DNA of 45,817 bases from an uncultured Clostridia bacterium. GTDB lineage: Bacteria; Bacillota; Clostridia; Oscillospirales; Oscillospiraceae. Below the pieces are notes generated by a model. The model was not told the origin of the DNA, searched no databases, and saw nothing but the letters and a program-made list of their open reading frames with translations. This document shows, in pieces, positions 125-31,451 of the stretch. The position numbers and the translations under genes were made by a program. Position 1 is the stretch's first letter. Each line of letters opens with the position of its first letter. Where the stretch lies: contig CAMONN010000002.1 in NCBI GenBank assembly GCA_946620645.1, positions 1-45,817 of the forward strand, in the 5' to 3' direction.

Positions 125-1788
125 CGGTCATCACCTGCTCTTCCGGAGTCGTTTCCCATTTTCACGATAAAGAAATCATCCACCGGGCCCATACAGCCCT
201 CTTCCGGGAAACAGGGCATGGCACGGACCCTGGGATCCTGCTGCATGCGGTTCCAGCTTTCGGTATCGGCCATCACAGCGGGACTGTTGAGGATATAGCG
301 GAAATAGGCCGCATAGCTGTTGTAGTTATAGGAGGCGAGAGACTTCTCAATCGGAGAGCTCTCTTCACAGCCGGTAATATCGTAGGTGGCTTCAAATCCG
401 GGCATCCGCACCCGCAGTTCCGGACTGACGCCGACAAAAACCAGAGGGGTTTCCCCGCTGCGGTAATCGGGGTTCGAATCCATCATGGTGAGCACGCGTG
501 TCATCAGGGACAGAGTGGCGTTCTGCTCCAGGTTCTTGCGGGTGTAGACCACGTTGGCGGTCTGTATGTTGGCGCAGAGCAGCAGAGTTGTGAGTGCTGC
601 GGAGAGAACACGCAGAATCGGGCGGGCCTTAAAAAGCTGCCCTGAAGAAGCTCCGGAAAGCGGTGACGAAGCTGAAGAGCCCGGTACCGCGGCATCGGAT
701 TCGGATGCAATAAAGTGGGGCAGCAGGCAGAACAGCCAGAACAGCCAGAAAGCGGTTTTCATCAGGTCGTGGACATCCAGTGTGAAAGCGAGCTGGGCGG
801 TATTCATCCCCAGGGGCAGAAGCAGCGTCAGCGCGGCCAGCAGCAGCTTTTCTGCCGGACCGGTGTCCTTCCTGCAGAACCAGCGGACCAGCGGAATCAG
901 CGCCAGCAGCGGCAGGAGAACAGCGAGGACCAGAACCAATGGCTCAATGTGGGACTTTGCCGGATTCCAGAAAGCCCAGGCCCAGGTTTGAAATGTGTGG
1001 AGGATTCTTCCGGTCAGCGGCAGGGCGGCCGTCTGGCCGACGTCATTGTAACTGCCCATGGCAAGGTTGATGCCCTTCAGGGAGCACATCACCCGGATGC
1101 CCGCCCAGTAGAGCAGGCCGCCCAGCGCCAGCATGACGATGGACCGCAGGCCCTTTCGAAACACCGGGCGGAAGGCCTCTCCCCGAAGAAGCGCCGCGAT
1201 GCTGAGGAGCATGATCAGCGTGACAGGAACCGACACCATGCTCTGATAAATTGAGATGCAGGCGGCAATGAGCAGCGACCCGAGCAGCGCGCCCGGCAGG
1301 CGGTACCGGTCCCAGAGCAGCACCGCAAGCACCCCCAGCAGCAGACCGAAACAGTCGGCGTCCATTTCGTACAGGAACGTGGCAGTCATGGCAATGGTTG
1401 AGAGGTTGGCTGCCAGAATGCCGCCGGCCAGCACCGTAAACCAGGGGCTGCGGATCCGGAAGAGCTTTACCGTCAGAAAGCCGGCAAGGCTCAGCCAGAA
1501 AAGGCTCAGGAGGCCAAGCATCCAGGGCGCCGCAATGAGGCCCCGGACCGTGCGCCGGTAGAGAACGATTCCCGGCCGTCCCAGCTGCATCTTCCAGTAG
1601 GTTTCGACCGGCTCCACAACGAGCGCGTTCAGCATATCATGGGAGAAGCCCGCCCTTAAAAAGCCGTAGGCGTGGGCGGCTAGACCGAAGAAAAAGACCG
1701 CAGCAAAACTGAGCAGAAGCAGACGCTTCTGCTCTTCCCTGCCCAGGCGGTCGTCCTGCCAGCCTTTAAGAAGAGTTGATTCCAACAT
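121..1788 (-). CDS. GtrII-like glucosyltransferase domain polytopic membrane protein
   Basis: ORF with many hydrophobic helices and an acidic N-proximal segment (HDMLNALVVEPVETYWKMQLGRPG) typical of GtrII-type membrane glucosyltransferases. Start set at MLESTLL rather than the upstream M. Confidence 0.65.
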   Translation of the reverse strand: MLESTLLKGWQDDRLGREEQKRLLLLSFAAVFFFGLAAHAYGFLRAGFSHDMLNALVVEPVETYWKMQLGRPGIVLYRRTVRGLIAAPWMLGLLSLFWLSLAGFLTVKLFRIRSPWFTVLAGGILAANLSTIAMTATFLYEMDADCFGLLLGVLAVLLWDRYRLPGALLGSLLIAACISIYQSMVSVPVTLIMLLSIAALLRGEAFRPVFRKGLRSIVMLALGGLLYWAGIRVMCSLKGINLAMGSYNDVGQTAALPLTGRILHTFQTWAWAFWNPAKSHIEPLVLVLAVLLPLLALIPLVRWFCRKDTGPAEKLLLAALTLLLPLGMNTAQLAFTLDVHDLMKTAFWLFWLFCLLPHFIASESDAAVPGSSASSPLSGASSGQLFKARPILRVLSAALTTLLLCANIQTANVVYTRKNLEQNATLSLMTRVLTMMDSNPDYRSGETPLVFVGVSPELRVRMPGFEATYDITGCEESSPIEKSLASYNYNSYAAYFRYILNSPAVMADTESWNRMQQDPRVRAMPCFPEEGCMGPVDDFFIVKMGNDSGRAGDDR

Positions 1789-2368: not shown

Positions 2369-2606
2369 GGTGTGCTCCCCTTTCTGCATTCGGTGTCAAC
2401 AGCGCTTCTGCGCCTTCTTCTCATTGTAGCATGCGGGGCGGTCAAGAGCAAGAATTTCCTGTGAAAGTTGGCTTCCCGTGCCGCCGGGGGATGGAACCGG
2501 TTTTTCCAGGAAGACGCCCGGGACCGGACTGCTGTGCTGCTGTGTCAGGGACAGCCTTTGTCAGGATCCACAAAAAAGATTTGTCATTTTTGTACAGTTT
2601 TCCGTC

Positions 2607-2635
2607 TTGAATCCTCCCTGGGTTTCGTTTATTAT
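2607..2635 (+). promoter_or_regulatory. sigma-A type promoter of the orphan RNA
   Basis: TTGAAT (2607-2612), 17 nt spacer, TATTAT (2630-2635). Not placed to serve any annotated long gene. Confidence 0.65.
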
Positions 2636-2817
2636 GTAGACGATGAAAGATTCATCCGGCCGGTCAGCCGGATGAGCGCCGATAGGAGCCATAGAGAAAG
2701 TACTCCACAATCAGGTCTGTCCCACCTAACGGGAATTGCGCGAGTCGCAGATATTGTGTTATGGGTGTTTCGTTTGTTTGGTTCCTCGGTCTACTCTGCA
2801 GAAAGAGAGGTTAAAAG

Positions 2818-2847
2818 ATGTTAGATACCAAGAATTTTGAGAAGTAA
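2818..2847 (+). CDS. putative 9-aa micro-ORF MLDTKNFEK
   Basis: ATG preceded by GAGAGG 7 nt upstream. The TAA lies inside the 5' arm of the terminator stem. Confidence 0.35.
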   Translation: MLDTKNFEK

Positions 2848-2890
2848 GCCCTGACCGGTGTGTGATGCGGTCAGGGCTTACTTCTTTTTT
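2840..2890 (+). terminator. intrinsic terminator of the orphan RNA
   Basis: 18-bp perfect stem AGAAGTAAGCCCTGACCG / CGGTCAGGGCTTACTTCT with a 10-nt loop, then TTTTTT. Confidence 0.9.
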
Positions 2891-2937
2891 ACAAGCTATT
2901 TGTGCCTGCTGCAGAGCAGGTTTTTTTGCGGCATGGT

Positions 2938-3972
2938 TCACAGCAGGGCGATCAGCTGTGTCACTTCATCCTCCGTTGTGGCCCAGCTGGTAACCAGGCG
3001 CATCGTGGTGTGCTCGGCATCCGGGTTTTCCCAGAAGCTCATCAGGATTTTTTCGGACAGCTCTTCAAGCTTTTTTCGGTCCAGCGTGAAGAAGATCTGG
3101 TTGGTCGGGGAGTCAAAGGCAAGGCGGTAGCCCTTTTGGCGCAGGGCGCTGCGGATCCGGTCGGCGGCTTCAATCGCCGTCCGCCCGATCCGGCCGTACA
3201 GGTTGTCGGTAAAGAGGGCGTCAAACTGCTGCCCGGCAATGAAACCCTTCGCCAGGACCGCACCGTGCTGCTTGCAGATGGAGAAGAAGTGGGGGATTGA
3301 GTCATGCCGGGGGAAAACGACGGCCTCGCCCAGGAGTGTTCCGCATTTGGTGCCGCCGATATAAAACACATCGCACAGGCGGGCAAGGTCGGGAAGACGG
3401 ACGTCGTTCTCCGGACAGGCCAGGGCGTAAGCCAGCCGCGCGCCGTCCACATAGAGCCGGAGGCCGCAGCCGCGGCAGACCCGGCTGACGGATTCCAGTT
3501 CCGACAGGGAATAGAGCGTCCCGATCTCCGTTGGCTGAGAGAGATACACCGCTCCGGGCATGACCACGTGATCGTGATTTGCATCATTCCGGAAAGCGTC
3601 GACACAGGCCTGAATCTGCGCTGCAGAGAGCTTTCCGTCTTTTCCGGGAAGGGCGAGAACCTTGTGGCCGCCGTGCTCGATGGCGCCGGCTTCGTGAATG
3701 CAGATGTGGCCGGTTTCCGCGGAAATCACGCCCTCATAGGGCCGCAGCAGCGCGTCCAGTACCGTTGCGTTGGTCTGGGTTCCTCCGACCAGAAACCAGA
3801 CATCCGCTTCCGGAGCCTGGCAGGCCTCCCGGATTCTGGCCCGGGCGGATTCGGAGAAGTCATCCTCCCCGTATACGCCGGATTTCACCAGGTTGTTGTC
3901 GGTCAGCCGTTTTAAAACGGCGGGGTGTGCGCCCTGCATATAGTCGCAGGACAGGTTCAGTTTTCCGGCCAT
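2938..3972 (-). CDS. low-specificity L-threonine aldolase / beta-eliminating lyase family PLP enzyme
   Basis: GVYGEDDFSE...VWFLVGGTQTNATVLDALLRPYEGVISAETGHICIHEAGAIEHGGHKV...LYVDGARLAYAL...YIGGTKCGTLLGEAVVF with a PLP-lysine context. Start at MAGKLN after SD agaaagga. Confidence 0.85.
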   Translation of the reverse strand: MAGKLNLSCDYMQGAHPAVLKRLTDNNLVKSGVYGEDDFSESARARIREACQAPEADVWFLVGGTQTNATVLDALLRPYEGVISAETGHICIHEAGAIEHGGHKVLALPGKDGKLSAAQIQACVDAFRNDANHDHVVMPGAVYLSQPTEIGTLYSLSELESVSRVCRGCGLRLYVDGARLAYALACPENDVRLPDLARLCDVFYIGGTKCGTLLGEAVVFPRHDSIPHFFSICKQHGAVLAKGFIAGQQFDALFTDNLYGRIGRTAIEAADRIRSALRQKGYRLAFDSPTNQIFFTLDRKKLEELSEKILMSFWENPDAEHTTMRLVTSWATTEDEVTQLIALL

Positions 3973-4021
3973 CGCTGTTCCTTTCTCATTTCTTCCGCTT
4001 TTCAAAAACCCTGCGCGTCCC

Positions 4022-25984: not shown

Positions 25985-26049
25985 ACGCACATAATTCAAT
26001 ACCAGCGATGCTTTCGGAATTCAGCAGAGGGAGACCGGAAGCGGAGGAA

Positions 26050-26121
26050 CTCTGGAGAATCCCTTTAAGGGTGCCGAAGGTGCAAGGCGACAGGCCGAAT
26101 CTCTCAGGCAAAAGGACAGAG
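26050..26121 (+). promoter_or_regulatory. glycine riboswitch aptamer (single canonical core)
   Basis: CTCTGGAGAATCCC...GGGTGCCGAAGGTGCAAGGCGA...CTCTCAGGCAAAAGGACAGAG; P1 CTCTG/CAGAG. Confidence 0.93.
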
Positions 26122-26184
26122 CGGAAGTCAGCTTCCCGATGCCGCATACAGAATGCGGCGCTGCGGTGAGGCGGACGAAAACCG

Positions 26185-31306: not shown

Positions 31307-31325
31307 ACCCTTTGCAAATTGATAT

Positions 31326-31410
31326 GGGCGCTGGGTTTTCCCGGCTGAGATGGAGTAATGGAGCTCTAACACCATGGAACCTGATCCGGGTAATGCCGGC
31401 GTAGGGAACA
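31326..31410 (+). promoter_or_regulatory. TPP riboswitch (THI element)
   Basis: CTGAGATGG...CCATGGAACCTGATCCGGGTAATGCCGGCGTAGGGAA matches the conserved THI-box core. Confidence 0.96.
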
Positions 31411-31416
31411 CCGAAC

Positions 31417-31451
31417 ACGGTAGGTTCTTTACGGAACCCGCCGTTTTTTTT
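31417..31451 (+). terminator. TPP riboswitch expression-platform terminator
   Basis: ACGGtaGGTTC tttacg GAACCcgCCGT followed by TTTTTTTT. Confidence 0.8.

Follow-up and report, generated by a model that had tools for sequence, protein, structure and literature searches.

The unit at positions 2589-2928 (+) of the window, the 45,817-nucleotide stretch of DNA from an uncultured Clostridia bacterium analysed here, is a real transcription unit and one copy of a widespread, apparently undescribed RNA gene family. At the level of sequence, the comparison of copies establishes a gene family with independent location, a conserved mini-ORF, a covarying stop codon within an intrinsic terminator (T1), and a second terminator (T2), and this anatomy is well supported. 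We infer translation, readthrough of T1, and action in trans. The preferred reading, held with modest confidence, is a translated small RNA in which the translation state of the mini-ORF would select between a T1-ended and a T2-ended form.

Anatomy of the unit

The unit starts with a conserved distal promoter motif, TTTGTACAGTTTTCCGTCTTG (2589..2609, +), which overlaps the -35 region; the match is exact, and the motif also precedes many other copies. The sigma-70-type promoter TTGAAT-17-TATTAT (2607..2635, +), proposed earlier from the letters alone (hereafter the sequence-only reading), is confirmed. Its -10 element aligns with TGCTATATTATAG in other copies, and the promoter region is conserved among copies as TTTTGTACAnnnTnCC.TCTTG 5' of the -10.

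Directly 3' of the expected RNA 5' end lies hairpin A, TCATCCGGC-cggtca-GCCGGATGA (2652..2675, +), with changes on both sides in 9 of 9 pairs among 13 homologues. It had been described as one of two mutually exclusive 5' hairpins; this one (TCATCCGGC/GCCGGATGA) is conserved, while its proposed alternative, GATGAA/TTCATC (2642-2656), is without equivalent in the alignment. An imperfect rod (2678..2790, +) follows, with an outer stem GCCGA.. / ..TCGG and inner stems around hairpin B, TCCC-ACCTAAC-GGGA (2720..2734, +), and hairpin C, TGCG-cgagt-CGCA (2737..2749, +). The CCC/GGG and GCG/CGC hairpins of the sequence-only reading are thereby borne out and supported in homologues; its long-range CCATA/TATGG pairing has no equivalent in their alignment. 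For the rod and hairpins A, B, and C together, both-sided changes occur in 17/32 pairs in the window subgroup (13 sequences), a result found in 0/500 shuffles. A proposed kissing or pseudoknot interaction between the loop of hairpin B and the 5' region was rejected, since such pairing does not exceed the level in shuffles.

The 3' module consists of an extended Shine-Dalgarno (SD) sequence, AGAAAGAGAGGT (2800..2811, +), near-invariant in the homologue alignment, the mini-ORF MLDTKNFEK (2818..2847, +; ATG TTA GAT ACC AAG AAT TTT GAG AAG TAA), and terminator T1 (2839..2890, +). The 5' arm of T1 (2839-2857) is GAGAAGTAAGCCCTGACCG and includes the stop codon TAA (2845-2847); the 3' arm occupies 2868-2886, and the U-tract extends to 2890. 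Both the GAGAGG SD with the ORF at 2818-2847 and the strong terminator with the stop codon in its stem (2839-2886 with U-tract) had been recognised from the letters and hold. T2 (2904..2928, +) has its stem at 2904-2921, followed by a T-run. T2 and the 5' mini-ORF of other copies had been overlooked. The folding of the whole unit gives z = -5.3, beating all 200 shuffles, and that of the unit minus the terminator z = -1.3, which is unexceptional.

Distribution of the family

In a BLAST search with the unit, 74 of 149 related genomes were matched, nearly always by the SD-ORF-terminator module. A DNA-pattern search for this module recovered at least 119 such stretches across named genomes; most are metagenome assemblies of Oscillospiraceae, Ruminococcaceae, and Clostridia from gut and rumen. 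A covariance model of the 3' module (R1, comprising SD, mini-ORF, and T1) detects it in 93/101 genomes within the genus (30/34 among those of good quality), usually in one or two copies per genome with a maximum of about six. Elsewhere in Clostridia it is patchy (R1 matches in 14/393 genomes of a class-wide sample), and matches outside the genus in a phylum sample are weak. These features also bear on the notion of a mobile repeat, dispersed and without cellular function, that brings along a promoter and terminators. The scatter of positions, the copy number of one to about six, the tandem arrangements at some loci, and patchiness outside the genus are in line with such a repeat. However, presence across almost the whole genus, usually as one or two diverged copies, and the compensatory changes and codon constraint that point to selection on a product make it quite improbable.

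Searches of 2400-3100 and of homologous copies with the Rfam 15 covariance models yielded nothing at the gathering score, raiA RNA included, which leaves the suggested raiA-type identity unsupported. One distant copy matches the Streptococcus sRNA SpF19 (RF02430) over the ORF start and terminator with 29.7 bits (E = 0.0016); this similarity was judged too weak, the score being half of the gathering value of 60 and the alignment containing no matching ORF. The other Rfam matches are one tRNA in the locus of a relative and two riboswitches elsewhere in the window, a glycine riboswitch at 26042-26129 (+) and a TPP riboswitch at 31314-31426 (+), both above the gathering score. A literature search with the peptide strings found no paper containing any of the searched strings, and phage and plasmid records contained no similarity except for a roughly 30-base chance match in a Streptomyces plasmid.

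The mini-ORF and its stop codon

The mini-ORF was compared in 93 copies that the model detected and a relaxed start pattern subsequently picked up. Its consensus is MLD[T/I/N]KN..., and its length is exclusively 8 or 9 codons. Codon 2 encodes Leu in 93/93 (TTA 73, CTA 16, CTC 2, CTT 2) and codon 3 is GAT in 93/93, counts to be read with the pattern itself in mind, which fixes ATG, T as the second base of codon 2, G at the start of the third codon, and GA[C/T] at codon 3; the silent GAC is allowed by the pattern yet absent. Codon 4 encodes Thr, Ile, or Asn with synonymous variation, and codon 5 encodes Lys in all 93 (AAG 74, AAA 19). All three stop codons are used, and the last three residues drift along with the terminator stem. 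The codon constraint favours translation of the mini-ORF, which on this evidence is likely, and the invariant GAT marks an additional constraint. Since GAC would be silent, part of the conservation must be non-coding and act at the nucleotide level. The sequence-only reading had staked its attenuator interpretation on conservation of the micro-ORF, which proves to be the best conserved part of the unit.

The stop codon lies wholly within the 5' arm of T1 in 118 of the 121 copies that have a detectable terminator. Its partner in the stem covaries, with TAA opposite TTA in 51 copies and TGA opposite TCA in 50, and TAG stops are paired with CTA, CTG, or TTA in 9. By comparison, 190 ordinary genes at these loci have a strong terminator near the stop codon, and in only 3 of them does the stop fall in the arm; the arrangement is therefore selected and does not reflect a general tendency of these genomes. 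The T1 stem itself is changed on both sides in 16/19 pairs among 45 homologues (0/500 shuffles), and both-sided changes amount to 122 cells against 28.7 in shuffles of these 45 sequences. In one copy (L213 and L075) the stop codon has become CAA and the ORF runs for 14 codons through the terminator stem, which makes this copy a natural mutant of the stop-in-terminator design.

These data can also be read with the peptide as the product. The unit would then be an independent mRNA for an 8-9-aa MLDxKN... peptide, with the T1 overlap arising from compactness and T2 serving as a back-up. Synonymous variation at Leu2, Thr4, and Lys5, the fixed ORF length, the variability of the remaining sequence, and the occurrence of rod-less copies are consistent with this. 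Against it, the last three residues follow the terminator stem, GAT is invariant, and an overlap that is nearly unique to the family cannot be attributed to compactness alone. A unit devoted to the peptide is thus regarded as rather unlikely.

A metabolite riboswitch or RNA-antiterminator attenuator was also considered and rejected, as no alternative upstream pairing with the T1 5' arm was found. In the search for an upstream complement to this arm, the longest match averages no excess over chance (6.28 observed, 6.27 shuffled), which leaves a ribosome on the stop codon as the plain candidate for opening T1.

The second terminator

Under strict criteria, T2 is found within 85 nt 3' of T1 on the same strand in 84/176 copies, at a median spacing of 20 nt, and a detectable T2 is missing in about half of the copies. 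As a control, of 244 strong terminators found elsewhere at these loci, 8 are followed by a further one (Fisher p = 4e-29), and on the opposite strand the corresponding stretch has a terminator in 13/125. The possibility that T2 is a leftover terminator of the upstream gene was rejected: T2 is equally common where the upstream gene has the opposite orientation, and it occurs in 17 of the 28 copies whose two neighbours both face the other strand. Such a frequency of T2 would be expected with frequent readthrough of T1.

The 5' end and the middle region

Many copies have an SD-like AAAGGGTGATACC a few nt after TGCTATATTATAG, followed by a mini-ORF just two or three codons long, such as ATG TAC AGG TAA. 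Of the SD-anchored 5' candidates, 38/42 stop after two or three codons, and 15/183 other ATGs of the same upstream regions stop that early (p = 4e-37, which is overstated because related copies are not independent). In six distant copies from other families the 5' mini-ORF reads MEE, MY, MAK, MYK, MRN, and MR; its codons thus differ, and its length rather than its sequence appears to be kept. In the window copy and those most closely related to it, the 5' mini-ORF is missing, and a covarying hairpin takes its place.

Another reading is a stand-alone regulatory RNA for capturing or tethering ribosomes, in which mini-ORFs at one end or at both would park ribosomes on a protected, structured RNA and the peptides would be by-products. 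The extended SD and a 5' mini-ORF of varied codons and fixed length, in the 38 candidates as well as in the six copies of other families, agree with such a function, whereas the absence of this mini-ORF from the window copy and from closely related copies does not. This explanation is considered unlikely.

The middle region is too divergent for a family-wide sequence alignment. A hairpin UCYC-RCYURN-GRGA is found about 95-110 nt 5' of the start codon in 55 of 177 copies (6 and 11 in controls). There are also rod-less copies consisting of just a mini-ORF, a short hairpin, the SD-ORF, and T1. Tandem copies, two or three in number and ~440-900 bp apart, occur at five loci (L089, L060, L081, L101, and L114), where sometimes one copy is full and the other rod-less. 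Outside the genus the middle region is different and longer. Copies in other families (L153, L155, L157, L158, and L160) have another, well-conserved middle that extends up to ~300 nt 5' of the mini-ORF and includes the motifs ACACGRCGGUGU, AAUUCGCCUUUUGC, and a UUCUC-NNUA-GAGAA-like hairpin.

Genomic setting

The window copy lies between a molybdopterin-binding MogA-type gene (1853-2389) and a beta-eliminating lyase or threonine-aldolase-type gene (2938-4005). Both are on the - strand, so the flanking genes are not convergent as first described. With regard to INDEPENDENCE, in 66/112 copies the downstream neighbour gene runs along the opposite strand, and upstream neighbours are evenly split between the strands. 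Clustering of neighbour proteins from 134 loci gave no common family beyond small groups of relatives. With unrelated, randomly oriented neighbours and a conserved promoter, the unit is, as far as its sequence context indicates, an independent gene, neither a leader nor a fixed aldolase antisense. The earlier designation as an orphan transcription unit stands.

The overlap of a short ORF with an intrinsic terminator, seen here in the sequence, does look like the leaders of cis-acting leader-peptide attenuators. Nevertheless, no regulated same-strand gene lies directly downstream, the neighbours share no family, and T1 is followed by T2. An antisense role towards the aldolase, which had also been proposed, conflicts with the unrelated genes, in either orientation, that adjoin other copies. 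Control of a downstream gene in cis or of the aldolase by antisense is largely refuted and very improbable. The dual-function or attenuator-like logic suggested by the sequence-only reading fits the arrangement of the elements, including the promoter and terminator of its own that a dual-function sRNA would have, and from this arrangement we infer the mechanism itself.

Proposed mechanism

In the preferred reading, a strong promoter would produce an RNA of about 250 nt, in which a folded 5' part (a hairpin here, a 2-3-codon mini-ORF elsewhere) and then a rod in the middle precede a very strong SD and an 8-9-codon ORF. A ribosome trailing the polymerase would halt at the mini-ORF stop and cover the T1 5' arm, leaving T1 unformed, and the polymerase would continue to T2. 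If the mini-ORF is not translated in time, T1 would act and the short form would be produced. In E. coli, the efficiency of a terminator a few bp past a stop codon falls from ~90% to below 10% (PMC4824070). The main doubt comes from the runaway transcription reported for Bacillus-like bacteria (PMC13323073), in which the polymerase can outrun the ribosome and which would weaken ribosome control of terminators.

A broader proposal, made tentatively, is a new class of free-standing translation-reporting RNAs, which would combine a mini-ORF at either or both ends with a terminator formed around a stop codon. Terminating translation would choose the 3' end without a downstream gene, and the isoforms or held ribosomes would act in trans. 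A conserved stand-alone attenuator of this kind, with a back-up terminator of its own, would mean that translation-coupled termination serves to make or switch a small RNA, beyond gating a downstream gene. For this lineage of gut and rumen, the family adds strongly supported ORFs of 8-9 and 2-3 codons, sizes overlooked in genome annotation, and because the stop codon covaries, the mechanism is open to a direct test.

Relation to known systems

Leader-peptide attenuators are known as parts of operon leaders. In the enterobacterial pyrBI and pyrE attenuators, a ribosome finishing a short ORF at or in an intrinsic terminator governs readthrough. The RNA gene family likewise has a short ORF ending by or inside an intrinsic terminator; in contrast to pyrBI and pyrE, which regulate the gene directly downstream, it has a second terminator in place of such a gene. 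SgrS, RNAIII, and SR1 are independent dual-function small RNAs with a short ORF and resemble the family in this respect, but have longer ORFs, which end outside the terminator stem. To our knowledge, rnTrpL/peTrpL has no sequence similarity to the family. This system of Sinorhizobium meliloti combines an attenuator-type small RNA and a tiny peptide with trans roles (PMC7298713); it is still a biosynthetic-operon leader there, whereas the family never precedes a fixed gene. By analogy, the family would act like translation-coupled attenuators, yet it is without the downstream gene that defines them, and there is a real chance that it represents a new class.

Other occurrences of the promoter motif

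The distal promoter motif, in the form TTTGTGCA..CCATCTTG, also precedes prophage-like or mobile-element operons at L282, L287, L288, L296, L298, L300, and L301, around position 1500. These operons contain a gene for a small protein matching the end of the RecE-like phrog_434, together with SprT-like and XerC-like genes, and operator-like repeats often flank the motif. Near one of them, a 6A RNA (RF02925) is located at 747-798 (-) of L288.
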